Source of the DNA: Lentimicrobiaceae bacterium | GTDB lineage: Bacteria; Bacteroidota; Bacteroidia; Bacteroidales; SKPS01 | Assembly (NCBI GenBank): GCA_007119395.1 | Contig: SKPS01000153.1 | Location: forward strand, 1-32,419 | Length of the DNA stretch: 32,419 bases | Direction: 5' to 3' | Shown: positions 6,351-27,964 of the stretch, piece after piece | Numbering within the stretch: position 1 is the first letter of the stretch | Layout: every line of letters begins with the position of its first letter | Program-made: the position numbers and the translations under genes | The notes under the pieces: model-generated | The model's input: only the letters and a program-made list of their open reading frames with translations | Told to the model about the DNA's origin: nothing | Database searches by the model: none

Positions 6351-8057
6351 TTAATCGTCGGTGCTCCAGTTATAACTGTAAAGGCCATCCAGCAGACGTT
6401 TCTTTTTCTCTTCATCAGAGAGCTTGTCGAAGGCTGCCTTTTCGGCGAGATGAGCTTCCACTTTCTTCATCTCTTCCTCATGAATCATTGCCCTGTACTC
6501 GCTCTCTTTCAGTTCTTGCAGGAACGTGGTGGCTACCTGAGGGAAAAGATCAAGCAACAACTCCTCTTTTTCGTTCTCTGCAAGTAACCTGTCACCGGCC
6601 TGATCCAGTTCGGGGTTTTCTGGCTTCTTGTAATTGTCAACGTTATAAGGGGTCTCTTCTCTGACACCACAAATCATCTCCCTGAAGTCGGGATCTATCT
6701 CTATGGGTGTTTTCCCATATTCACCTTTGACCAGGCTTACAAACTGATTGTTTTTGGTGGTGTAGGGCTTCTGCTTTTTGTTTTCGTCGATAACATAATT
6801 AACGGCCTGAACACCAACAATTTGAGAGGTTGGGGTTACCAATGGGGGGCACCCTGCAGCCAGTCGCACCACTGGTACCACTTCAAGAACCCTTGACATG
6901 AGATGATCGAGCTTGAGTTGTTTGAGCTGTGATATCATGTTGGTGTACATTCCACCGGGTATTTCTGCTTTTTTTACCTCTTCGTTGGGTTCGGGCAGGC
7001 CAAACCAACGTTCAATTGCCTGGGTAGCTTCCAGCAGCTTCTCTTCGTCATTTTTTCCGGCAAATTCTATTGCCTGGTCGAACAGTTGGTCTATTTCCGG
7101 GGGCAGTGTGTCTTTGGTAAGATCGAAGGTGCGGGGCAATTCGTAGTTGTCAATGTCTCCCATCTCTTTGCGGATCTCGCCGAGTTGTTCGTTGATGGTA
7201 GCGATCACGTTAACATTCACGCCGGTATCAACGCCCAATTTATTGCAGAAGAGTTGTATTATTTCGAATGATGGGGCAGCGGGGCCTCCGCTGAAGTTAA
7301 GGATGGATGTGTCAACGATATCTACTCCATTCATGATGGCCACCAGAGTGGATGCCAATCCGTAGCCGGGCGTACAGTGGGTGTGAAAGTCGATCGGGAT
7401 TTTCAGTTCCGCTTTCATTCTGGAGATGATTTTGGCTGCCTGACGCGGAGGAACGAGGCCTGCCATGTCTTTGATGGTGATCATATCGGCACCCATTGCT
7501 TCCAGCTCTTTGGCTTTGTTGACAAAGTAATCGGTTCGGAAGATTCTGCGGGGCACCTTTTTCATCTGCCAGAAGGCTTTTGCTCTTTCGCGCAGTGTGA
7601 ATTTGGGGTCAATGGTGTAACAGACACAACAGTCGGCAATACCTCCATTCTCTTTCACATATCCAATAGTTGACCGGATATTGCTGGTGTCATTGAGTGC
7701 ATCAAATATTCGCATGATGGAAATGCCTGATTGCACTGCATGACGGTTGAACCCCTCAATTACGCTTTCGGGATATGGATTGTATCCAAAGAGGTTTCTG
7801 CCTCGGGATAAGGCGGTTAGTTTGCTGACGCTTCCCACTTCACGATGAATGCTTTCGAGCCGGTGCCAGGGGTTCTCCTTCAGGAACCGCATAATGGCAT
7901 CCGGTACTGCGCCACCCCATACTTCCATGGCATAAAATCCTGCTTCCTTATAATAGGGCAACACACGGTCAACCTGATTCTGATTCATTCTGGTGGCAAA
8001 CAACGACTGCTGCCCATCCCTCAGTGTCAAATCCCTTATTTTTAATGTTTTGTTCAT
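6351..8057 (-). CDS. pycB: Pyruvate carboxylase subunit B / oxaloacetate decarboxylase alpha-type carboxyltransferase
   Basis: The product transfers carboxyl between carboxybiotin and pyruvate/oxaloacetate. The start chosen is ATG 8057 (MNKTLKIRDLTLRDGQQS), because the first 10 residues of the longer frame are non-homologous leader. From that start, LRDGQQS is at 12-18, the carboxyl-accepting-type lysine motif TIKDMAGL is near Lys196 and metal-binding FHTHCTPG is at 224-231. At 568 residues it covers the HMGL-like barrel and the PYC_OADA conserved domain, but the C-terminus (ending SYNWSTDD) has no biotinyl domain and no MKM motif. It must therefore use a separate carrier; the one encoded at 22271-22702 is a candidate. 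It appears to have its own promoter and is followed by a terminator, so it is likely monocistronic. Confidence 0.92.
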   Translation of the reverse strand: MNKTLKIRDLTLRDGQQSLFATRMNQNQVDRVLPYYKEAGFYAMEVWGGAVPDAIMRFLKENPWHRLESIHREVGSVSKLTALSRGRNLFGYNPYPESVIEGFNRHAVQSGISIMRIFDALNDTSNIRSTIGYVKENGGIADCCVCYTIDPKFTLRERAKAFWQMKKVPRRIFRTDYFVNKAKELEAMGADMITIKDMAGLVPPRQAAKIISRMKAELKIPIDFHTHCTPGYGLASTLVAIMNGVDIVDTSILNFSGGPAAPSFEIIQLFCNKLGVDTGVNVNVIATINEQLGEIRKEMGDIDNYELPRTFDLTKDTLPPEIDQLFDQAIEFAGKNDEEKLLEATQAIERWFGLPEPNEEVKKAEIPGGMYTNMISQLKQLKLDHLMSRVLEVVPVVRLAAGCPPLVTPTSQIVGVQAVNYVIDENKKQKPYTTKNNQFVSLVKGEYGKTPIEIDPDFREMICGVREETPYNVDNYKKPENPELDQAGDRLLAENEKEELLLDLFPQVATTFLQELKESEYRAMIHEEEMKKVEAHLAEKAAFDKLSDEEKKKRLLDGLYSYNWSTDD

Positions 8058-8091
8058 GATAAACTTTAATTGGTTTAACAGTTCCAATGAT

Positions 8092-8121
8092 TCTGTGCCG
8101 CCCCCGTATTAACGGCACAGA
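8092..8121 (-). promoter_or_regulatory. Leader hairpin in front of pycB
   Basis: A perfect 9-base inverted repeat (TCTGTGCCG 8092-8100, CGGCACAGA 8113-8121) with a 12-base loop lies 35 bases upstream of the pycB ATG. No T-run follows on either strand, so it does not look like a terminator for nhaC. It would be in the 5' leader of pycB if the promoter at 8159-8190 is used. A regulatory role is inferred. Confidence 0.4.
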
Positions 8122-8158
8122 GGCAAGAGGCATCAAAAAAAGCCTTCTTTACCAAGTG

Positions 8159-8190
8159 CAAAGATAAGATAATCAAATATACAATTCAAG
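8159..8190 (-). promoter_or_regulatory. Candidate pycB promoter
   Basis: On the minus strand, CTTG (8190-8187) is followed after 20 bases by TATCTTTG (8166-8159), close to the Bacteroidetes consensus TTTG-N19/20-TAnnTTTG. A second -7-like box, TATATTTG, sits at 8181-8174. Transcription would start about 95 bases before the pycB ATG. Confidence 0.45.
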
Positions 8191-8205
8191 TAATAAATTG
8201 TTTAA

Positions 8206-10221
8206 TCACTCACCGGGTAAGTCTGTGCCGGTGTTCAGGGGATTTTGTATTGGAGGTATGTGGTGTTTTTTGCCCAGCCAACGGATTATGCCATAAGCGA
8301 TGGCTGTTGAAATGGCAAATGCCGCCAATGGGTGTAATCCATATGATGTGGGGATGATTCCTGCTGCCATTGCGATGGTTCCGGTAGTGAGCGCGTAGGG
8401 CAACTGTGTTTTCACGTGGTCGATATGGTTGCATTGGGTGGCCAGCGAGCTCAATATTGTAGTATCGGATATGGGTGAGCAGTGGTCACCCATGACGGCT
8501 CCTGCGAGCACTGATGCCACGGTAGCATGGAACAGCATCATGGATGTGGGTTGATCCAACTGAAATTCGAAAAACAGGTTCCAAGAGGTGGGGAGCAGGA
8601 GTGGGAACAGGATGGCCATTGTACTCCACGAAGAGCCGGTGCTGAAGGCGACGCCGGCGGCCAGCAAAAAGGTGAGCAGCGGGATAAGGCGTGGGGTGAT
8701 CTCAGATGCGATCATCACATGCGACAAGTATTCGGCTGTGTGCAGATGCCTGGTGACCATGGCCAGTGCCCAGGCCAGTACCAGAATCAGCATGGCATGC
8801 AGCATCGTCTTGAACCCCTCTACCATCCCTTCGGTCACCTTCTGTAGCGAGAGCAGCTTTTGTGACACTGTGAGCAGGATGGCAAGAAGCAGTCCGCTGA
8901 AAGATGCCCAAAGCAACGCCCTGAAGGTGTCGGCCTGACCAATGATTTCTGACAGATTGGAGGCCAGTCCGAGTTGTGGCTGCCAGGCAGTGTGCTCCAT
9001 TCCTGTGATAATCAGTCCTGTAAAAGCTCCGGTAATCACCGTTATAACGGGCAACAGAGCATTCACTGCGCGAGGTTTGGAGTGCTTCGCTTCACCCATC
9101 GCTGTTGCCGGGTTATGATGGGATGCGGGGTCTTCTTCGGCAGATGATTCCGGTGTTGTCTGAAGGAGTGTTCGCTGTTCGGCATGGTACATGGCTCCAT
9201 AATCACGGCCACTCCATATCAGCATCACCACAAACAGCAACGTGAGGAATGGGTAGAATGCGTATCCCAATGAGCCCATAAAGATGGCATAGGGGCTTGC
9301 TTCTATGGCGGGGGCCGTTCCTGCGGCAATCACCTCCAGGGCATCTTTGATATAGCTTAGTTCGGCGCCGATCCAAGTGGTGATAAAGGCCACTGCGGCC
9401 ACCGGTGCAGCAGTTGAGTCAACCACATAGCTCAGCTTTTCCCGTGAAATACGCATCCGGTCACTCAATGGGCGCATGGTGTTGCCAACCACCAACGTAT
9501 TGGCATAGTCATCAAAAAAAAGAACCAGCCCCATCAACCAAGTCGACAAAAGGGTTGAGCGCCGGGTGCCGGCAACCTTCATTATGAGCAATACCACCCC
9601 TTTCATTCCGCCATTCAGGGTGATGACATGAACCATTCCTCCGATCATCAATGAGAAAACGATGATTGAGACATGGTCGCTGCTGGTCATGGTAGCCACG
9701 ATGTAGGTGTCTATGATGCGTAGCAGTCCGACGCCTGCTGCTGTAATGATCGTGTGGCCGCCATACCATGCGATCATCCAGGTGCCTGATAACAGTCCCA
9801 GAATCAAGGCAGAAAACACCTCTCTGAAGAATAGAGCCCACGCAATCGCTAACAGGGGTGGTATCAGCCCGTACCAGAGAGGGATGGCTCTTCCGGTGGA
9901 GGAGTGGTGTGTGTTGTTTACGATGATGGTCACCGGTTGATGTGCTGCTGGAATGAAAGGGATGAGGTGAGCACTGAGTGTGGAGTCTGCGGCGATTTCA
10001 AAGGCATCCTCACCAACGATCACGGAAAAGTGCCCATGGTATCTATCGGGTGTCAGAACCTCTGCCGCTGTTTCAACACCGGCAACCATGATGGCGGGGA
10101 ACAGCACCTCATGCTTCTCTTGATATTGGTTCGAGGGGGGCGTTCCACACGAAGAGAGGACGATGAGAACCGTTATGATGAGAGCCAATGCCGGCAGAAG
10201 CCTTGACACGTTGGGTCTCAT
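8206..10221 (-). CDS. nhaC: NhaC-family Na+/H+ antiporter with a lipoprotein-like N-terminal extension
   Basis: The C-terminal 550 residues form a polytopic NhaC-type transporter with about 11-13 hydrophobic segments. Family-like parts include FFDDYANTLVVGNTMRPLSD, the STAAPVAAVAFITTW segment and the DHCSPISDTTILSS motif near the end. It should exchange Na+ for H+ across the inner membrane. The first 110 residues are unusual. They begin with a type II signal sequence (LALIITVLIVLSSCG, lipobox LSSC) followed by about 85 hydrophilic residues before the first transporter helix (IPLWYGLIPPLLAIAWAL). The start is fixed by a 4-base ATGA overlap with dxs, so the two are translationally coupled. With the sodium-pumping decarboxylase encoded in this window, it fits a sodium-based energy economy. 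Confidence 0.85.
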   Translation of the reverse strand: MRPNVSRLLPALALIITVLIVLSSCGTPPSNQYQEKHEVLFPAIMVAGVETAAEVLTPDRYHGHFSVIVGEDAFEIAADSTLSAHLIPFIPAAHQPVTIIVNNTHHSSTGRAIPLWYGLIPPLLAIAWALFFREVFSALILGLLSGTWMIAWYGGHTIITAAGVGLLRIIDTYIVATMTSSDHVSIIVFSLMIGGMVHVITLNGGMKGVVLLIMKVAGTRRSTLLSTWLMGLVLFFDDYANTLVVGNTMRPLSDRMRISREKLSYVVDSTAAPVAAVAFITTWIGAELSYIKDALEVIAAGTAPAIEASPYAIFMGSLGYAFYPFLTLLFVVMLIWSGRDYGAMYHAEQRTLLQTTPESSAEEDPASHHNPATAMGEAKHSKPRAVNALLPVITVITGAFTGLIITGMEHTAWQPQLGLASNLSEIIGQADTFRALLWASFSGLLLAILLTVSQKLLSLQKVTEGMVEGFKTMLHAMLILVLAWALAMVTRHLHTAEYLSHVMIASEITPRLIPLLTFLLAAGVAFSTGSSWSTMAILFPLLLPTSWNLFFEFQLDQPTSMMLFHATVASVLAGAVMGDHCSPISDTTILSSLATQCNHIDHVKTQLPYALTTGTIAMAAGIIPTSYGLHPLAAFAISTAIAYGIIRWLGKKHHIPPIQNPLNTGTDLPGE

Positions 10222-12155
10222 AAATTGACAGCTTTTGATACAGGGTGAATTTTTGCTTCACGGTACCAGGTGAGTGCTGCCTGGTAAATGTCTTCAGCAT
10301 GAAAACCACACTCACGGTAGAGGGCATCGGGAGAACCATGTTCGATAAACTGGTCGGGGATACCGAGCCGTATCACCTGTGCGGTATGGTTGTGGTCGCT
10401 TTTAAACTCTGTCACAGCTGATCCGAACCCACCCTGGATGGTACCGTCTTCCACTACGATGAGGGCATTGTATTCTGTAAACACTTCATGAAGCAGTTTT
10501 TCATCCAGAGGTTTCAGGAACCGAATATCGAAATGTGCAGGTTTAAACCCTTTTTGTTCGAGTCGGTCTATGGCAGAGGAGGCGAAGTTCCCTGTATGTC
10601 CGATGGTTAGAATGGCGAGGTCTTCCCCATTTCTGATTCTTCGCCCTTTGCCTGGTTCGAGGCGTTTGAAGGGCTGTTTCCAGTTGGCTGTCACCCCGCG
10701 CCCTCTGGGGTATCGGATCACCCATGCCCCCATGTTGTCGAGCTGAGCTGTGTACATCATATTCCGCAATTCCACCTCGTTCATGGGTGCTGCAATGGTC
10801 AGGTTGGGGATGCACCGGAAGAAGGCCAGATCAAATGCACCATGATGCGTTGCACCATCTTCACCCACCAGCCCCGCCCTGTCGAGACAGAACACCACAG
10901 GCAGCTTCTGCAGAGCCACATCGTGTATTACCTGATCGTAGGCACGTTGCATAAAGCTGGAGTAGATGTTACAGAAAGGGATCATGCCTGAAGCCGCCAG
11001 ACCTGCTGAGAAGGTCACGGCATGTTGCTCTGCTATGCCTACATCAAAGGTTCGTTCAGGCATTACCGTCATCATCATATGCAGGGAGCACCCTGAAGGC
11101 ATAGCAGGTGTAATGCCTGTGATGCGGGGATTGGCATGAGCCAGTTCAATGATGGTTTTGCCGAATACATTTTGGTATTTTGGGGCATAGGCTGCGCAAG
11201 GCTTTGTTATCCTATTGCCCGTTTGCTTGTCAAATTGCCCCGGTGCATGAAACCGTGTTTGTTGTTTTTCAGCATGAGCATACCCTTTGCCTTTCACGGT
11301 GATACAATGCAGGATCTTGGGCCCCGGGATCTCTTTCAGGTCACGCATAAGGTGCACCAGTCGCTTTACATCGTGACCATCAACGGGCCCGAAGTACCGA
11401 AAGCCCAACGATTCGAACAGGTTACTCTTTGACAAGATGGTGGTTTTTACCGCTTTCTCAATCTGCTTGAGGATATTCCGGGTATTGGGGCCATATCTTG
11501 TTTTTCCGCCGGTAAGGTTCCAAATGGTATTTCGAAAGCGGTTGTATGTTCTGGAGATGGTGATGTCTGTTAGATACTCTTTCAGGGCGCCCACATTTTG
11601 GTCGATGGCTATGCCGTTGTCGTTGATCACGACCAGCAGATTGGATTTGACCCAACCGGCATGGTTCATCGCTTCAAAGGCCATTCCTGCCGTGAGGGAT
11701 CCATCTCCTATTACGGCAACGTGGTGCTTGTCTGTTTCACCTTGCATCGCACTGGCTTGTGCCATTCCCAGCAATGCAGAGATAGAGGTTGATGAGTGCC
11801 CCACCCCAAAGGCGTCGTACTCACTCTCTGCCATCTTCGGGAACCCACTGATGCCACCATATTGCCGGTTGGTGTGAAACCTGTTTTTTCTACCGGTGAG
11901 GATTTTGTGGGCGTAAGCCTGATGCCCCACATCCCAGATCAGCTTGTCGTAAGGGGTGTTGTACACATAATGCAATGCTACAGCCAGCTCCACCGCACCC
12001 AGGCTCGCACCAAAATGGCCCGGGTTAATCGATACCGCATCAATGATGAAATCACGCAGCTCACTGCACAATGATTCCAGCTGATCCTCTGCTAACCTTC
12101 GAAGGTCCTCAGGCAGATCAATCCCTGAGAGTATGGGTCCTTGTAAAATCGTCAT
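10218..12155 (-). CDS. dxs: 1-deoxy-D-xylulose-5-phosphate synthase
   Basis: This 645-residue, full-length Dxs condenses pyruvate and glyceraldehyde 3-phosphate in the first step of the MEP isoprenoid pathway, in the cytoplasm. Visible motifs are GHFGASLGAVELAVAL, DVGHQAYAHKILTGR, the thiamine-diphosphate motif GDGSLTAGMAFEAMNHAG with VINDNG, and the transketolase segment GIAEQHAVTFSAGLA. DRAGLVGEDGATHHGAFDLAF and VEDGTIQGGFGSAV follow. The TGA stop overlaps the nhaC start. A promoter match lies 33 bases upstream of the ATG, divergent from murI. Confidence 0.97.
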   Translation of the reverse strand: MTILQGPILSGIDLPEDLRRLAEDQLESLCSELRDFIIDAVSINPGHFGASLGAVELAVALHYVYNTPYDKLIWDVGHQAYAHKILTGRKNRFHTNRQYGGISGFPKMAESEYDAFGVGHSSTSISALLGMAQASAMQGETDKHHVAVIGDGSLTAGMAFEAMNHAGWVKSNLLVVINDNGIAIDQNVGALKEYLTDITISRTYNRFRNTIWNLTGGKTRYGPNTRNILKQIEKAVKTTILSKSNLFESLGFRYFGPVDGHDVKRLVHLMRDLKEIPGPKILHCITVKGKGYAHAEKQQTRFHAPGQFDKQTGNRITKPCAAYAPKYQNVFGKTIIELAHANPRITGITPAMPSGCSLHMMMTVMPERTFDVGIAEQHAVTFSAGLAASGMIPFCNIYSSFMQRAYDQVIHDVALQKLPVVFCLDRAGLVGEDGATHHGAFDLAFFRCIPNLTIAAPMNEVELRNMMYTAQLDNMGAWVIRYPRGRGVTANWKQPFKRLEPGKGRRIRNGEDLAILTIGHTGNFASSAIDRLEQKGFKPAHFDIRFLKPLDEKLLHEVFTEYNALIVVEDGTIQGGFGSAVTEFKSDHNHTAQVIRLGIPDQFIEHGSPDALYRECGFHAEDIYQAALTWYREAKIHPVSKAVNL

Positions 12156-20616: not shown

Positions 20617-22233
20617 TTACATCAGGAAGCTCAGTAGGATACCTGCGGCCACTGCTGAGCCGATCACTCCTGATACATTGGGTGCCATTGCGTGCATCAG
20701 CAGGTGGTTGTTGGGATCGTTCAGAAGCCCTTCATGTTGTACAACCCTTGCGCTGTCGGGTACTGCCGATACGCCGGAGGCACCAATCAATGGGTTGATT
20801 TTGTTCTCCTTGGTCAGGAACAGGTTCATCAATTTGGCAGAGAGGAGGCCTCCGATGGTAGCCACCATAAAGCTAACGGCTCCTAGTACGAAAATCAGCA
20901 CCGACTCTTTGGTGAGGAACACATCGGCCTGTGTTGAAGCACCCACTGTTAGTCCAAGCAAAATGGTAACAATATCCACCATGGCATTTCTGGCTGTTTC
21001 AGCCAATCGACGTGTTACACCACTCTCTTTAAGGATGTTGCCAAAGAAGAGCATGCCCAGAAGTGGCAGTGCACTGGGTGCGATAAAGGTGGTGAGGAAG
21101 AGACCCACAATCGGGAACAGGATTTTCTCCAGTTTCGATACAGAACGTGGTGGTTTCATCCGGATGAGTCGCTCTTTTTTATTTGTCAGCAGTCTCATAA
21201 ACGGAGGCTGAATAACAGGAACAAGCGCCATGTATGAGTAAGCGGCAATCGCAATGGGGCCAATCAGGTTTTTGACGATGATGGGATCACCGGCTGCTGT
21301 ATAACCGATTACATTGATCCCGTTGGCTAGCTTTGAGGAGATAAAAATGGCGGTAGGGCCGTCGGCACCTCCGATAATACCGATAGCAGCAGCCTCAGGT
21401 GGAGCAAACCCCAGATAGAGGGCACCAAGGAACGTAGCGAAGATACCGATTTGTGCGGCCGCTCCCAACAGCATCAATTTGGGATTCGACATCAGCGATG
21501 AGAAGTCGGTCATCGCACCAATACCAAGAAAAATCAACGGGGGATAAATACCTGCTGTTACTCCAAAGTACAGGTAATTCAGCACACTGCCACTTTCGTA
21601 GATACCCAGCTCCAGATTGAACCCTTCGGCCTGGAAAAACGGGATATTCCCCATGATGATCCCTGTTCCGATCGGTATCAACAGCAGCGGTTCGTAATCG
21701 TATTTGATGGCAAGGTAGATAAAGATCAACCCCACAATAAACATAATCAGGTGACCTGGTGTAGCATTGGGGAATCCTGAAAATTCGATAAAGTTCAACA
21801 ATCCGGCAACCGAAGTGGAGTGTCGTTTGTAGACGTCATTACCAATCACCAGGTGTCCATCCTGGTCGACAAATCCACGCTTGGTGGATAGCTCCACCGG
21901 ACCATGCGTTGCAAACTCCAGTACAATAATGTTGTCATCTACCTTCCAGCTACCGATAAATCGTTGTTTGGCAGAATCGAGGGCAAAAGCGCCGTCATCC
22001 TCAAAGAACAGCATTTTGTAGCGTTTCACCGTAGCACTGTCATCAGCACGTAAACGGTAGCCGTCGCTTTTGTTCAGCCATTTCCCCCTTGCAAGGTGAT
22101 CTTTCAATTCTGCTTTCGTTTTCTGCCCCGGAATGGAGGTAGAAATATCCTCCTGCACATAGTTGCCCATAAACAGGGCAGATAGGATGGACAGGAATAT
22201 TATGATCCCGATAAGGGTTGTCAATCTCTTCAT
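20617..22233 (-). CDS. mmdB: Na+-translocating decarboxylase beta subunit (OadB/MmdB) with an extra extracytoplasmic domain
   Basis: The start chosen is ATG 22233 (MKRLTTLIGI), which avoids overlap with the biotin carrier gene; this gives 538 residues against roughly 370-430 for ordinary beta subunits. Residues 160-538 are the Na+-pumping membrane part: many helices with GIGAMTDFSSLMSNPK, IGIIGGADGPTAIF and GASGVSAVPDSARVV, which are strongly conserved. It decarboxylates the carboxybiotin of the carrier and uses that energy to export Na+. Residues 24-150, after a first TM helix, form a hydrophilic domain with a lipocalin-like flavour (GSWKVDDNIIVLEF) that is not needed for the core function. 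It is last in the mce-mmdA-oadG-biotin carrier set. Confidence 0.92.
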   Translation of the reverse strand: MKRLTTLIGIIIFLSILSALFMGNYVQEDISTSIPGQKTKAELKDHLARGKWLNKSDGYRLRADDSATVKRYKMLFFEDDGAFALDSAKQRFIGSWKVDDNIIVLEFATHGPVELSTKRGFVDQDGHLVIGNDVYKRHSTSVAGLLNFIEFSGFPNATPGHLIMFIVGLIFIYLAIKYDYEPLLLIPIGTGIIMGNIPFFQAEGFNLELGIYESGSVLNYLYFGVTAGIYPPLIFLGIGAMTDFSSLMSNPKLMLLGAAAQIGIFATFLGALYLGFAPPEAAAIGIIGGADGPTAIFISSKLANGINVIGYTAAGDPIIVKNLIGPIAIAAYSYMALVPVIQPPFMRLLTNKKERLIRMKPPRSVSKLEKILFPIVGLFLTTFIAPSALPLLGMLFFGNILKESGVTRRLAETARNAMVDIVTILLGLTVGASTQADVFLTKESVLIFVLGAVSFMVATIGGLLSAKLMNLFLTKENKINPLIGASGVSAVPDSARVVQHEGLLNDPNNHLLMHAMAPNVSGVIGSAVAAGILLSFLM

Positions 22234-22270
22234 CTGGTGGAAACCTTTCTTGTGCAACACTTCTTTATTC

Positions 22271-22702
22271 TTATTCCATTTCGAGCAAAACTGCTCCCTG
22301 TAATACATTGTCTCCCGCCGAGACCTTGATTGATTTCACAACACCATCTTGTTCAGCCTGGATATTGTTCTCCATTTTCATGGCCTCCATCAGCAAGAGC
22401 TTATCGCCACGTTTCACGGCATCACCGGGTTTGACAAGGATCTGCAAAATGGTACCCGGCAGGGGTGAGGTTACGGGAATGGCTACCCCTCCACCTGCAG
22501 GAGGAGGTGCAGCTTCAGGAGAAGATGGAGCCGCTTTTACAACCGGACGCTTGATCTTAGGGGTTTTGGTGGCAGAGTCCTTGTGTGTTACCTCCACCTT
22601 GAACGGTGTGCCGTTCACCTCTATATCAGCTACATTGTCTGCATATTCCTTGATCTCAACTGCGTATTCAAGTCCGTTTATTACAAATTTATACTGCTTC
22701 AT
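22271..22702 (-). CDS. mmdC: Biotin carboxyl carrier subunit (MmdC-like)
   Basis: The 143-residue protein has a C-terminal biotinyl domain with the lysine-bearing motif LLMEAMKMENNIQA, ending VLQGAVLLEME. A Pro/Ala/Gly-rich flexible linker (SSPEAAPPPAGGG) joins it to an N-terminal domain of about 60 residues (YKFVINGLEYAVEIKEY). It shuttles CO2 as carboxybiotin from the carboxyltransferase to the membrane beta subunit. It lies between the oadG-like and beta-subunit genes. It may also serve PycB, which lacks its own biotinyl domain (inference). Confidence 0.94.
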   Translation of the reverse strand: MKQYKFVINGLEYAVEIKEYADNVADIEVNGTPFKVEVTHKDSATKTPKIKRPVVKAAPSSPEAAPPPAGGGVAIPVTSPLPGTILQILVKPGDAVKRGDKLLLMEAMKMENNIQAEQDGVVKSIKVSAGDNVLQGAVLLEME

Positions 22703-22741
22703 ATTGTTTCCGGTTTTTCCTCAAAAAATTTCTTCACTCAT

Positions 22742-23104
22742 TTACCAGTTCTTGCGATTCAGGGTGTTCAAACCGTAAATCTTTGAACTCCACGGGGAGT
22801 AACTCCGGGATACCTTTCTGATGGTAATCACATTGCTCTCTTCGTCGTGTATTTCACTGAAAAAGAGATGTAGCGCCATAGAAATGGCTGCGTTCTCCTC
22901 TCCGCTCACTTGTGTGGGTTCTTTCTGTTGTGACACATCCACCCCCTTTTTCTTCAGCCTGTTACGTGCCTCAATGGAAAGGATTTTGGGGAGGTTGTAG
23001 AACAGGGTTACCAAACTTACCAATACAGTAAATACGATAATATACCCCACAAGCGCAATAGTAATGTGTTCATTGGTAATATGTTCAAAACTTGCCAGGA
23101 TCAT
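22742..23104 (-). CDS. mmdD: OadG/MmdD-type small membrane subunit of Na+-translocating decarboxylase
   Basis: This is a 120-residue protein with one N-terminal transmembrane helix (ITIALVGYIIVFTVLVSLVTLF), a basic cytoplasmic segment and a conserved C-terminal tail (WSSKIYGLNTLNRKNW). In related complexes this small subunit links the soluble carboxyltransferase and biotin carrier to the membrane pump. It is located between mmdA and the biotin carrier gene, 18 bases after mmdA. Confidence 0.88.
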   Translation of the reverse strand: MILASFEHITNEHITIALVGYIIVFTVLVSLVTLFYNLPKILSIEARNRLKKKGVDVSQQKEPTQVSGEENAAISMALHLFFSEIHDEESNVITIRKVSRSYSPWSSKIYGLNTLNRKNW

Positions 23105-23122
23105 AGCTAAACTGTTGATAGA

Positions 23123-24682
23123 TTATAGAGGGATGTTACAATGCTTTCTCGGAGGGTTGGTGTCTTTTTTGGTTGCCAGTGCCTGCAGTGCTCTGATGAC
23201 CCTGAAGCGGGTGTTTCGGGGCTCAATGACATCGTCAATATATCCGAATTTGGCAGCCTCATAAGGGTTGGCAAACTTGTCTTTGTACTCTTGTTCTTTC
23301 TCAGCGATGAATCGTTTTTTCTCCTCTTCATCGGTTATCTCAGCCAACTCTCTACTTCTGAGCACCTCAATGGCACCTTTGGGTCCCATAACTGCAATCT
23401 CAGCAGAAGGCCAAGCATAATTGATGTCACCTCGTAACTGTTTGCTGCTCATTACATCGTGAGCACCACCATATGATTTCCTCAGGGTGATGGTCACCTT
23501 TGGTACCGTTGCCTCACCATAGGCAAACATCAGTTTGGCTCCATGAAGAATGATGCCACCGTACTCCTGTTGGGTGCCGGGAAGGAAACCGGGTACATCT
23601 ACCATCGTGACCAATGGTATATTGAAGGCATCGCAAAATCTTACAAAGCGTGCTGCCTTACGTGATGCATCAATATCTAGCACACCTGCCAGGTAGCTGG
23701 GCTGATTGGCCACAACGCCCACAGGCATTCCATCAAACTTGGCAAAACCAGTTACAATGTTTTTGGCATAATGACGATGCACTTCCAGAAACTCGTTGTC
23801 ATCTACTACAGCGTAGATAATGTCTTTTACGTCGTACGGTTTATTGGGGTCTGAAGGGATAAAATAATTCAGTGAGTCTTCCAGTCTGTCGATGGGGTCG
23901 TTGCACTGTACCATGGGTGGGTCTTCCAGGTTATTGGAAGGCAGGTACGAGAGCAGCTTGCGAATCATCATCAGCCCCTCTTCTTCTGTTTCAGAGATAA
24001 AGTGGCTAACACCTGATTTGGCGGCATGCACATGAGCCCCACCCAGTTCGTCAACCGTAACCACTTCGCCGGTTACTGTTTTCACCACCTTAGGGCCTGT
24101 AACAAACATGTAACTGTTGCGCTCACTCATCAGGATGAAATCAGTAAGGGCAGGTGAGTAAACAGCTCCTCCGGCACATGGGCCGAAGATAGCAGAGATC
24201 TGTGGTATCACACCGGATGCATTGATGTTGCGCTGAAAGATCTCGGCATAACCCGCCAGGCTTTTCACACCTTCCTGGATTCGTGCACCACCACTGTCGT
24301 TCAAACCAATCACCGGAGCACCTACTTTCATGGCCTGGTCCATCACCTTGCAGATCTTTTTGGCATATGCCTCTGACAGGGATCCACCGAAAACAGTGAA
24401 ATCCTGTGAGTAAACATACACAATACGACCATCAATGGTACCATAACCAGTTACTACACCATCAGACAAAATACGTTGCTTTTCCAACCCAAAATCGTGG
24501 GAGGTGTGGGTGACAAACATGTCAAACTCCTCAAAACTTCCTTCGTCTAACAGAATTTCAATACGCTCACGGGCTGTGAGTTTGCCCTTTTTATGCTGTG
24601 ATTCAATTCTGGCTATTCCACCACCGAGCCTCGCTTGCTCGCGCCTCGCCATGAGGTCCTTAATTTTGTCTTCTATCGCCAT
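23123..24682 (-). CDS. mmdA: Methylmalonyl-CoA decarboxylase alpha subunit / acyl-CoA carboxyltransferase
   Basis: The product moves carboxyl from (S)-methylmalonyl-CoA to biotin, releasing propionyl-CoA; the family also includes propionyl-CoA carboxylase beta. The start is ATG 24682 ([22 protein letters not shown]); an upstream in-frame TTG is unlikely. The 519-residue length is typical. Both crotonase-like halves are present: [23 protein letters not shown] and [17 protein letters not shown] in the first, [25 protein letters not shown] and [15 protein letters not shown] in the second. Location between the epimerase gene and the membrane subunits argues for decarboxylation coupled to Na+ export rather than for carboxylation. 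Confidence 0.94.
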
Positions 24683-24703
24683 TTTGATCAATATCTGTAT
24701 GGG

Positions 24704-25123
24704 TTATTCCTTTACTTTCTTGTCTTCGCAAAACTCAGTCAACACACCAAATGTGCTTTTCGGATGTAAAAAGGCAATATCGAGCCCTTCAGCTCCGCGA
24801 CGGGGCACGGAGTCAATCAGTGAGACCCCATGCTCTTTGGCAGCCTCTAGGCATTGCTCTATCCCTTTCACTGCAAACGCTATATGATGAACTCCCTGGC
24901 CACGCTTCTCGATGAATTTTCCAACCGGACCCTCAGGATCTGTAGACTCAAGCAACTCTATCTTGGTGTCACCCACCTTGAAAAAAGCTGTGCGAACCCG
25001 CTGATCCTTCACCTCTTCAATCGCATAGCAGGTGAGACCCAATACCTTCTCGTAATAGGCTATGGCAGCATCCATGTCCTTTACCGCAATCCCAATGTGT
25101 TCAATGTGCGTTGGCTTCATCAT
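24704..25123 (-). CDS. mce: Methylmalonyl-CoA epimerase
   Basis: This is a 139-residue glyoxalase/VOC-fold protein. It begins HIEHIGIAVKDMDAAIAYYEKVLGL, with the metal-binding His, and contains GQGVHHIAFAVKGIEQ, FLHPKSTFGVLTEFCE and the conserved PRRGAEG turn. It interconverts (R)- and (S)-methylmalonyl-CoA between methylmalonyl-CoA mutase and MmdA in propionate formation. The gene starts at 25123 (MMKP) or 25120 and precedes mmdA by 21 bases. Methylmalonyl-CoA mutase is not in the window. Confidence 0.96.
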   Translation of the reverse strand: MMKPTHIEHIGIAVKDMDAAIAYYEKVLGLTCYAIEEVKDQRVRTAFFKVGDTKIELLESTDPEGPVGKFIEKRGQGVHHIAFAVKGIEQCLEAAKEHGVSLIDSVPRRGAEGLDIAFLHPKSTFGVLTEFCEDKKVKE

Positions 25124-25354: not shown

Positions 25355-26065
25355 CTATACAATGGTTTTTACCCTGTTTCTCTCCTGAATGTATTGTTCA
25401 TATTTCCCTTCAAAGCGGATTCTCGCAGCCACTACAGTATCAAACTGTTTCAGGCTGGCAATCAGCAATTCACACACCTCCCTCAGCGCCATATTTCCCC
25501 CTGTAGAGCCGGTGATATAATCAGCCAAACGGTGTTCCAATACATATCGTCTGGTAAGGGGAGCTGCCGGCTGGTTAAAAAACAGCCTCAGCCCGCACCG
25601 CTGAGCCAAGGTGAAATCAATGATGTCATCAAAAAAAAATGCTGTCTCTTCCGGTACCACTGCATGGTCACGTGACAGAACAGAAAGCGCTTCATCCTTA
25701 CGCTTCACACCTGTCATTACCATATTAAAGTGCTCACGGGTTGCAAACTGCTTCGCTGTTTTATTGTCAGCACCCGACACGATCGCAGTAATGGGCATCT
25801 CCCCCTTGTTTTGTAGCCAGATGGCAAAACGGAGCATGTTCACCCCCATTGAGTCAGCCTCCGTGAAGCCACTTCCGTCGAGATGGGTCTTATGGCCATT
25901 GTTGAATACACCGTCCCAGTCGAATACCAAAGCCCTGACACGCGCTAAACGCCCGGCAAATGATGCATACCCCTCAGGAAACTCACCCCCCAACTCTTTG
26001 AAAGGGGTGATGAGCGCGCTGTCAAACCCAGGCTGTTGTTGTGGATCGTGATGCATGTTGTTCAC
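25355..26065 (-). CDS. KdsC-like HAD phosphatase, divergent
   Basis: This is a HAD-superfamily protein of the Kdo-8-phosphate phosphatase type. The catalytic FDWDGVF (Asp49, Asp51), the second-motif Ser in IVSGADNKTA (residue 97), the Lys in GVKRKDEAL (123) and the acidic FFFDDIIDF (146-150) are in order. The C-terminal TGSTGGNMALREVCELLI is close to the KdsC GGxGAVREVxExI signature. At 236 residues it is longer than KdsC (about 165-190), with about 42 extra N-terminal and 30 C-terminal residues, and the usual Gly before the last acidic pair is Phe. A GTG start at 26065 overlaps the preceding stop by 4 bases; ATG 26056 is the alternative. It should remove phosphate from a Kdo-8-phosphate-like ulosonic acid. 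Confidence 0.75.
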   Translation of the reverse strand: MNNMHHDPQQQPGFDSALITPFKELGGEFPEGYASFAGRLARVRALVFDWDGVFNNGHKTHLDGSGFTEADSMGVNMLRFAIWLQNKGEMPITAIVSGADNKTAKQFATREHFNMVMTGVKRKDEALSVLSRDHAVVPEETAFFFDDIIDFTLAQRCGLRLFFNQPAAPLTRRYVLEHRLADYITGSTGGNMALREVCELLIASLKQFDTVVAARIRFEGKYEQYIQERNRVKTIV

Positions 26066-27084
26066 GGCCTGCCGTTTTTAAAGAGATCATGGATGTCCAT
26101 GATGCCGATTGGCTTACCATCTTTGGTAACCACAATGTTATCGATTTTCTTTTTCCTGAACAACAATGAAGCATTGTGCAGTGACTCCTCTGCATCGATG
26201 CAGACAGGTGTTTTCACGGGCATGGTATCGAGCTTTTTACGAAGAATTCCTTCCCCTTGTTGCTCAAGCATTCTACGCAGGTCTCCATCGGTGAAGATTC
26301 CTATCAGTGCTCCGTTGTCGTCTGTGATGCTGACGGCGCCAAACTGTGAAGTGGTCATAATGACCAGTGCATCCAGGATGGTTTTATGATGGCTTATGGT
26401 GGAGGGTGCATCTGAGATCACCTGGTGAACCTTAAGGGTGATGAGTCTGGTGTGCTCAAAGAACTGCTGTGTGCCAATGTCGGTGAAATGGTTTTTGAAC
26501 AATTGCTTCATCACCTTCCAGGGAATGGTACAGGCATGTACGCCAAGGTTCAATGCGTTGCGAACGTGTTCTGAATGCCTGACGGATGAGAACATAATTT
26601 TCGAAGGATATCGGTACCTGTCGGTGATCTCAACACATTGCCTGATGAGCCCCAGTGCGTCGTGCCCTTCGTCCTGCAATCGGCCTACCAATGGGCACAC
26701 ATAGGTGGCCCCTGCCGACAACGCCATATAGGCCTGCTGAATCGTATAGACTAGATGTACGTTCACCATCAGCCCTTGATCAATCAACTGCCTGCACGCC
26801 TTTATGCCGTCGGTGCTGACAGGGATTTTAAAGACTGTTCGTGACGGGTCGAGGCCCAATCCGATCAAACGATGCGCTTCAGAACAGATCTCCTCAGCAT
26901 CTTCTCCCAGTGCTTCCACCTGCAAAACAGGCACCCTGGTGGAGAGCTGAAGAATGGTGCTGTTGATGTCTGTGATACCATCACGGTGCATAAAAGTTGG
27001 TGTGGTGGTAAGCCCCGCAAGGATGCCCAATGACGCGGCCTCTTCAATCTCTTCAATATTGGCTGAATCAAGGTATAATTCCAT
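26062..27084 (-). CDS. Transaldolase/fructose-6-phosphate aldolase-like domain fused to a KdsD-type CBS pair
   Basis: I start it at ATG 27084 (MELYLDSANIEEIEE), giving 340 residues and a 17-base overlap with the kdsA-like gene. Residues 1-222 align by eye with E. coli fructose-6-phosphate aldolase: MELYLD at 1-6, the Schiff-base lysine as Lys86 in VFKIPVSTDG, then QAYMALSAGATYV, CPLVGRL with Arg135 and MFSSVR. The usual active-site TTNPS is TTTPT (26-30), replacing Asn28. Residues 225-338 are two CBS domains with GIFTDGDLRR and a terminal MDIHDLF, the pattern of arabinose-5-phosphate isomerase KdsD/KpsF, but no SIS domain is present. It sits between kdsA-like and kdsC-like genes, where kdsD would be expected. 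The role in supplying the KdsA substrate is inferred; see findings. Confidence 0.85.
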   Translation of the reverse strand: MELYLDSANIEEIEEAASLGILAGLTTTPTFMHRDGITDINSTILQLSTRVPVLQVEALGEDAEEICSEAHRLIGLGLDPSRTVFKIPVSTDGIKACRQLIDQGLMVNVHLVYTIQQAYMALSAGATYVCPLVGRLQDEGHDALGLIRQCVEITDRYRYPSKIMFSSVRHSEHVRNALNLGVHACTIPWKVMKQLFKNHFTDIGTQQFFEHTRLITLKVHQVISDAPSTISHHKTILDALVIMTTSQFGAVSITDDNGALIGIFTDGDLRRMLEQQGEGILRKKLDTMPVKTPVCIDAEESLHNASLLFRKKKIDNIVVTKDGKPIGIMDIHDLFKNGRP

Positions 27085-27964
27085 GTTCGTTTTTGTATTG
27101 GTTGATCGTGTTATGTATCTCAAGCAGTGGTTTTAAAAACATTTCCAAGTGTTGGGTATGCATTTGGCTTGCTGCATCGCACAACGCTTTGTCTGGTGCT
27201 GTGTGGGTTTCAATGAAAAGTCCGTCAATGCCTGCTGCCACGGCACTTCGTGCCAGTACACTCAAATATTCACGGGAACCGCCGGCTGGGTTGGAGCTTG
27301 GAATTCCATATCGTCTTACTGAATGTGTAACATCAAATACCACCGGGCATCCGGTTCGTTGCAGATGGTAAAAGCTCCGTGGATCAACCACCAGGTCGTT
27401 GTAACCAAAAGAGTAACCTCGCTCGGTTACCAGGATATTTCTGTTCCCTGCAGCCTCCACCTTGGCAACAGGCTTCAACATCTGTTCCGGTGCCAGAAAC
27501 TGACCTCGTTTGATGTTGACGACCTTGTTCGTTGAGGCCACCTTTTCCAATAGCTCGGTCTGCATGCATAGGTAGGCTGGTATTTGCAATACATCCAATA
27601 CAGCTGCCGCCTCATCAACGTGTTCGGGATAGTGCACATCCGATAACACAGGGAAGCCAAAATCGCCTCTGATCCGTTCCAGAATCCGCAACCCTTTTTC
27701 AAGCCCGGGGCCACGGTAGTAATTGGCAACACTGCGGTTGTCTTTGAGGAAAGAGGATTTGAAAATCACAGGTATGTTTAATCTGGCTGAAATACCTGCC
27801 AGTTGCTCAGCTACCTGCATCATAAGAGGCTCCTCTTCAATCACACAAGGGCCTGAAATTAAAAAGAGGGGAGGTGCTCCGCATACCAAGTCACCTATCA
27901 CCACCTGATGCTTTGTGCGTGACAGGTGACGATCGATTGGCCTAAGGTTGTTTTTCGTAGTCAT
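27068..27964 (-). CDS. kdsA: KdsA-like 3-deoxy-8-phosphooctulonate synthase, metal-dependent type, divergent
   Basis: The start is ATG 27964 (MTTKNNLRPIDRH), 298 residues; longer frames run into the upstream gene. The KdsA fold condenses phosphoenolpyruvate with arabinose-5-phosphate. The four metal ligands of the metal-dependent class are present: Cys40 (SGPCVIE), His214 (DVTHS), Glu252 (FIETH) and Asp263. The phosphate-binding NRS is kept (KDNRS 74-78), as is RGPGLEKGLRIL. Two conserved spots differ: the segment usually reading RQTDL is MQTEL (Met134) and the usual DG after the last ligand region is DA (264). It is preceded by the lipoprotein gene (14-base gap) and overlaps the aldolase-CBS gene. 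It could make Kdo-8-phosphate or a close analogue. Confidence 0.85.
   Translation of the reverse strand: MTTKNNLRPIDRHLSRTKHQVVIGDLVCGAPPLFLISGPCVIEEEPLMMQVAEQLAGISARLNIPVIFKSSFLKDNRSVANYYRGPGLEKGLRILERIRGDFGFPVLSDVHYPEHVDEAAAVLDVLQIPAYLCMQTELLEKVASTNKVVNIKRGQFLAPEQMLKPVAKVEAAGNRNILVTERGYSFGYNDLVVDPRSFYHLQRTGCPVVFDVTHSVRRYGIPSSNPAGGSREYLSVLARSAVAAGIDGLFIETHTAPDKALCDAASQMHTQHLEMFLKPLLEIHNTINQYKNEHGIIP

Follow-up and report, generated by a model that had tools for sequence, protein, structure and literature searches.

We identified a family of Bacteroidota proteins that join an aldolase barrel of the transaldolase type to the CBS pair of arabinose-5-phosphate isomerase KdsD, and we propose that this fusion most likely serves as a non-homologous replacement for KdsD that supplies KdsA with its substrate. 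The gene that revealed the family, whose existence is confirmed, lies in the window, which is the whole stretch of DNA analysed (32,419 nucleotides of a Lentimicrobiaceae genome, contig SKPS01000153.1). We further consider it probable that the protein is a dedicated natural arabinose-5-phosphate synthase, acting as an aldolase or as a ribose-5-phosphate epimerase, with which many Bacteroidota start Kdo synthesis without KdsD. The features that we observed directly, and on which this proposal builds, are the domain fusion, its operon with kdsA and kdsC or kdsB, the absence of KdsD, a retained lysine, and the kinship of the CBS pair to that of KdsD.

The fusion gene occupies positions 26062..27084 of the minus strand, with an ATG at 27084, a stop codon at 26062-26064, and a product of 340 aa. 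A Pfam search matched TAL_FSA to residues 3-201 (E 6.9e-35, 121 bits, cut-off 27) and two CBS domains to the region after residue 210 (E 1e-16), and returned no match to the SIS domain that KdsD carries, which bears out the original prediction that an aldolase-type barrel with CBS domains stands here in place of a SIS protein. The NCBIfam FSA models cover residues 1-209 (E 2e-50). The KpsF/KdsD models cover only residues 216-338, which correspond to the CBS part of those models (E 4e-14 to 2e-13; profile positions 154-267 of the kpsF model), and the score of the fusion against TIGR00875 is 171 bits, under the equivalog cut-off of 246. Structure prediction with AlphaFold gave a mean pLDDT of 90, and the best Foldseek matches of the barrel were transaldolases and FSA enzymes with a TM of about 0.9 across the barrel, the transaldolases of Thermotoga, Bacillus, and Thermoplasma ranking best and E. 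coli FSA lower, in agreement with the fold that had been predicted. The barrel itself was thus found by both Pfam and Foldseek, but its predicted extent of 222 residues was too long, as it ends near residue 210. We assign it to residues 1-210 (26455..27084, minus strand) and the KdsD-type CBS pair to residues 213-340 (26065..26448, minus strand).

The CBS pair had been called KdsD-like from the motifs GIFTDGDLRR and MDIHDLF, both of which are found in the C-terminal part, and the kpsF match described above is joined by two further results that uphold this assignment. The best PDB match was 4o9k, a CBS pair that belongs to an arabinose-5-phosphate isomerase, and 3fna and 3k2v were also matched. 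In a tree that included IMPDH-sized and other CBS proteins for comparison, the CBS pairs of the fusions formed one group that joined those of Bacteroidota KdsD with support of 99/94. We take the 4o9k entry to hold CMP-Kdo, which would make feedback by CMP-Kdo on the fusion plausible; the CBS pair may tune flux by sensing an end product, for instance CMP-Kdo or CMP-Kdo8N.

As predicted, the fusion gene lies between a kdsA-like and a kdsC-like gene. Upstream, kdsA (27071..27964, minus strand) encodes a Kdo-8-phosphate synthase that scores 329 bits against TIGR01362 (cut-off 314) and belongs to a fusion-associated subtype whose arabinose-5-phosphate site is altered; kdsA runs 17 nt into the start of the fusion gene. 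On the other side, the frame of a HAD phosphatase gene (25358..26065, minus strand) opens at the fusion stop. Its product is a divergent subtype that scores under the KdsC cut-off in profile searches and is assigned by its KdsC fold, with Foldseek E values of about 1e-12 to KdsC/YrbI structures. We found no SIS-CBS KdsD in the assembly of the window genome, which is 86% complete and in which the only SIS domains found are those of two GlmS proteins and a 199-aa GmhA-like protein. Nor did this genome (G000) or its sister (G001) contain a separate TAL_FSA protein, the fusion being the sole match, and the pentose phosphate pathway of these two organisms may lack transaldolase or use the fusion. 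Elsewhere in the window, positions 20617-25123 contain a run of genes for glyoxalase-family (methylmalonyl-CoA epimerase-like), carboxyltransferase, biotin carrier, and OAD-beta proteins, which is probably a cluster of the sodium-pumping methylmalonyl-CoA decarboxylase type.

The fusion is carried by about 50 genomes, often within a kdsA–fusion–kdsC(–kdsB) cassette. A scan of contigs yielded 43 loci encoding the same protein at 56-67% identity, 42 of them full length and one ended by a contig edge, and the phylum sample and genomes related to the window genome added further fusions, with a few organisms possibly present in both sets. Nearly all of these loci belong to Bacteroidota, including isolates of Runella, Siphonobacter, Flammeovirga, and Xanthocytophaga. 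The gene kdsA adjoins the fusion at more than half of the loci, a kdsC-fold gene lies beside it at 23/44 and kdsB at 11/44, always on the same strand, and in Runella and Siphonobacter the fusion is located apart from kdsA. KdsB scored over its cut-off in 18/18 fusion genomes checked, and KdsA was present in all 7 fusion genomes of the phylum sample. The fusion thus shares with KdsD a genomic link to Kdo genes, and the survey of Bacteroidetes for fusions near kdsA, which had been suggested along with the original prediction, returned a recurrent kdsA–fusion–kdsC order. Chance or misassembly is ruled out by the same full-length fusion in about 50 genomes, isolates among them. We found no earlier description of the fusion in the open-access literature, consistent with the impression behind the prediction, and subscription journals could hold one.

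The fusion and KdsD exclude one another. The presence of a normal KdsD elsewhere in the genome had been named beforehand as the outcome that would speak against a replacement, and a genome-wide search found no separate KpsF/KdsD over cut-off in any of the fusion genomes (0/46), whose kpsF matches were confined to CBS domains, apart from weak matches over some of the SIS region (e.g., G047, G081). Across 393 genomes sampled evenly from the phylum, we counted 284 with KdsA, 276 with KdsD, and 7 with the fusion. By comparison of these lists, KdsA and KdsD occur together in 273 genomes, the fusion is found in none of these, and no genome of the 393 combines the fusion with KdsD. Eleven sampled genomes encode KdsA and lack KdsD, and 7 of the 11 carry the fusion. 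Among genomes with kdsA, the association of the fusion with KdsD absence gave a Fisher value of 1.2e-11 (3.1e-10 without the window genome), which is inflated because the sampled genomes are related to one another. Four families (f44, f50, f52, and f57) contain both states, which indicates that KdsD and the fusion were exchanged more than once. Four other sampled genomes with kdsA have neither gene, which indicates that KdsD absence alone does not require the fusion. Incomplete genomes are ruled out as the general cause of KdsD absence, as isolates and genomes that are 95-100% complete also lack it. G106 (L160), which is tagged 100% complete, has kdsA with no SIS-CBS KdsD and no fusion and may have a third source of arabinose-5-phosphate. 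Taken together, these results support the original interpretation: the domain swap first read from a single window holds up as a real and conserved feature, and it and KdsD are mutually exclusive.

We also compared the active site of 52 fusions with that of 31 TalC proteins, mapping site positions onto the Thermoplasma transaldolase; the sequences of E. coli FSA and KdsA were used for numbering only. Lys86, which had been predicted to form the Schiff base, aligns with the Schiff-base lysine and is invariant in 52/52 fusions, as are Asp6, Glu57, Asn108, Arg135, Ser167, and Arg169, all as in TalC. In the donor and catalytic-water site, by contrast, the substitutions N28T, T110H, S130C, and F132L distinguish 52/52 fusions from 31/31 TalC proteins, and Phe165 and Ser166 in every fusion contrast with Ala165 and Ala166 in all or nearly all of the 31. 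Each of the 52 fusions carries TTTP, His110, Cys130, and Leu132, and none has TTNP with the donor-site pattern of Thr, Ser or Ala, and Phe or Tyr. By analogy with established transaldolase structures, we read the phosphate end of the substrate site as unchanged and the donor end as changed, and judged from the alignment the barrel is a changed aldolase site and not a dead one. Its substrate cannot be read from homology, since the donor pocket differs at several positions from the characterised FSA enzymes and transaldolases compared. A housekeeping transaldolase is rejected for most genomes: 16/18 fusion genomes, all except the window genome and its sister, encode a separate TalC-type protein, which indicates that the fusion is not their transaldolase.

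KdsA differs between fusion and KdsD genomes. In the fusion genomes, 28/28 distinct KdsA sequences have Ser23, Asp61, Tyr117, Met120, Arg205, Tyr207, and Cys249, and 27/28 have His139, whereas the KdsA of KdsD genomes has Ala61, Phe117, Arg120, Lys139, Gln205, Pro207, and Ser249 almost without exception, the sole exception being the second copy of the locus of genome G333 itself. Distances among fusions and among KdsA proteins correlate over 25 genomes (Mantel 0.62, 0/2000), and from these sequence comparisons KdsA and the fusion appear to be co-inherited, with KdsA co-diverged in its arabinose-5-phosphate site. G333 combines a fusion-type KdsA and the same kdsC subtype with an ordinary KdsD and no fusion, and a relative, L035, pairs the fusion with a KdsA that is 89% identical to that of G333. 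Because the same KdsA subtype is paired with KdsD in one case and with the fusion in the other, the simplest inference is that both would supply this KdsA with one and the same product, arabinose-5-phosphate.

Based on these findings, we propose that the barrel forms arabinose-5-phosphate for KdsA. The Lys86 enamine of a two-carbon glycolaldehyde unit would add to glyceraldehyde-3-phosphate, with Arg135, Ser167, and Arg169 binding the phosphate of the latter. The unit that adds could be free glycolaldehyde, which would give a net aldol reaction, or could come from retro-aldol cleavage of ribose-5-phosphate with re-addition on the other face, which would amount to C2 epimerisation. The free aldol route is tentatively placed first within this role, the epimerisation route may apply with a chance that we rank close to it, and another reaction, such as release of arabinose-5-phosphate from octulose-8-phosphate, is the least likely of the three. 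Free glycolaldehyde is scarce, and its known general source is folate synthesis, which in E. coli falls short of the demand of Kdo synthesis by a factor of roughly ten to forty, as estimated from biomass composition. Folate synthesis thus yields too little by this estimate, which makes glycolaldehyde supply the weak point of the aldol route. The chemistry invoked in the original prediction is itself sound, as FSA enzymes form arabinose-5-phosphate from glycolaldehyde as donor and glyceraldehyde 3-phosphate as acceptor (PMC6298115, PMC9947464). The TalB variant F178Y makes both arabinose-5-phosphate and ribose-5-phosphate from these compounds (PMC9947464), and an enzyme that ran both reactions without releasing the parts would convert ribose-5-phosphate to arabinose-5-phosphate with no need for free glycolaldehyde.

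A ribose-5-phosphate/arabinose-5-phosphate 2-epimerase, which is also one branch of our preferred explanation, is the leading rival and a serious alternative, although we regard it as less likely than not. Lys86 would form a Schiff base with C1 of ribose-5-phosphate, followed by deprotonation and reprotonation of C2 or by cleavage and rejoining of the C2–C3 bond with the glycolaldehyde enamine turned over. Geometry is consistent with this reaction, as aldopentose-5-phosphates would span the same distance from Schiff base to phosphate as fructose-6-phosphate, and the two epimers obtained with TalB F178Y suggest that one such site can reach both (PMC9947464). Asp6 and Glu57 remain in place as acid/base residues, the family-specific His110 is added, and the problem of glycolaldehyde supply would be removed. 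Against this reading, we know of no epimerase in the FSA family. In addition, FsaA is reported to make only arabinose-5-phosphate (PMC9947464).

It is improbable that the fusion acts as a transaldolase on an unusual sugar pair, either releasing arabinose-5-phosphate from octulose-8-phosphate or transferring a C3 unit that feeds another sugar. The family can make octulose-8-phosphates, as LmbR does in lincomycin biosynthesis (PMC5854111), and the transaldolase residues Glu57 and Asn108 are kept. However, no member retains the usual residues at positions 28, 110, 130, and 132, which surround the C3 donor, the adjoining genes include no known octulose source, and a separate transaldolase is present in most fusion genomes.

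We likewise see little probability that the cassette starts from another aldose and yields an acid sugar other than Kdo. In known KdsA structures, residues near 61-64 and 117-120 touch arabinose-5-phosphate, with Arg120 contacting its phosphate, and a fusion-type KdsA that lacks Arg120 makes a different substrate conceivable. Six site changes (A61D, F117Y, R120M, Q205R, P207Y, and S249C) are invariant in the KdsA of all fusion genomes checked, and the KdsC-like protein falls under the KdsC cut-off. KdsA nevertheless passes its own cut-off, KdsB is ordinary, and in G333 these subtypes of KdsA and KdsC occur alongside KdsD. A further point for a different sugar is the Kdo8N gene KdnB, whose oxidase product matches the Kdo 8-oxidase structure 5k8c (E 1.2e-127). 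Several fusion loci and G333 encode a KdnB-like oxidase together with an aminotransferase of the DegT type, and the two resemble the gene pair for 8-amino-Kdo. KdnB is found in 30/39 fusion genomes versus 5/41 others, and neither the window genome nor its sister has it, so that a tie of the fusion to Kdo8N synthesis holds only partly; the cassette occurs often, but not always, in genomes that probably make Kdo8N. Moreover, KdnA and KdnB act on finished Kdo, which also counts against a different sugar. KdnB-like and/or KdnA-like genes lie beside kdsA, kdsC, or kdsB at L159 (G333; 7144-12103), L022, L025, L032, L035, L127, and L135, and these Bacteroidota loci likely specify LPS with 8-amino-Kdo outside Shewanella.

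Least likely of all, the fusion would be a regulator or moonlighting protein, with arabinose-5-phosphate coming from, for example, a promiscuous GmhA or another SIS protein: fusion genomes do keep GlmS, GmhA-like, and other SIS proteins, and G106 manages with neither KdsD nor the fusion, but the invariant Schiff-base and phosphate residues (52/52) point to catalysis, and the exclusion with KdsD is one to one.

KdsD is viewed as the first enzyme in the pathway to Kdo, a sugar of the outer membrane, and antibacterial research has taken it up as a target. If the fusion replaces it, Kdo can be made from different precursors by an undescribed natural route to arabinose-5-phosphate, which would explain the missing KdsD in many Bacteroidota and correct their pathway annotation. 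With its pocket remodelled in this way, the transaldolase scaffold would also lend itself to a clear test of how structure relates to function. Synthetic glycolaldehyde pathways call for an arabinose-5-phosphate aldolase with much higher affinity for glycolaldehyde (PMC9947464), and the fusion would offer the natural candidate that they lack.

Among known systems, KdsD/KpsF/GutQ (SIS plus CBS pair) have the same place in the pathway, the same type of CBS pair, and about the same length as the fusion, whose catalytic domain is instead a TAL_FSA barrel with a Schiff-base lysine and whose chemistry must differ from ribulose-5-phosphate isomerisation. With FsaA and TalC-type transaldolases, the fusion has in common the fold, the Schiff-base lysine, Asp6, and the phosphate-binding Arg and Ser residues, and it differs in its added CBS pair, in the invariant Thr28, His110, Cys130, and Leu132, and in its tie to Kdo genes rather than central sugar metabolism; E. 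coli FsaA makes in vitro the product that we propose for the fusion. LmbR of the lincomycin pathway is likewise a transaldolase-family enzyme recruited for a special sugar phosphate, but its product is an octulose, its pathway is unrelated, and to our knowledge it has no CBS pair. Finally, synthetic glycolaldehyde-assimilation pathways based on FsaA or TalB F178Y run the reaction proposed here, from glycolaldehyde and glyceraldehyde 3-phosphate to arabinose-5-phosphate, with enzymes engineered into a task other than their natural ones, whereas the fusion is proposed to be a natural enzyme that is devoted to this role and carries a regulatory domain.
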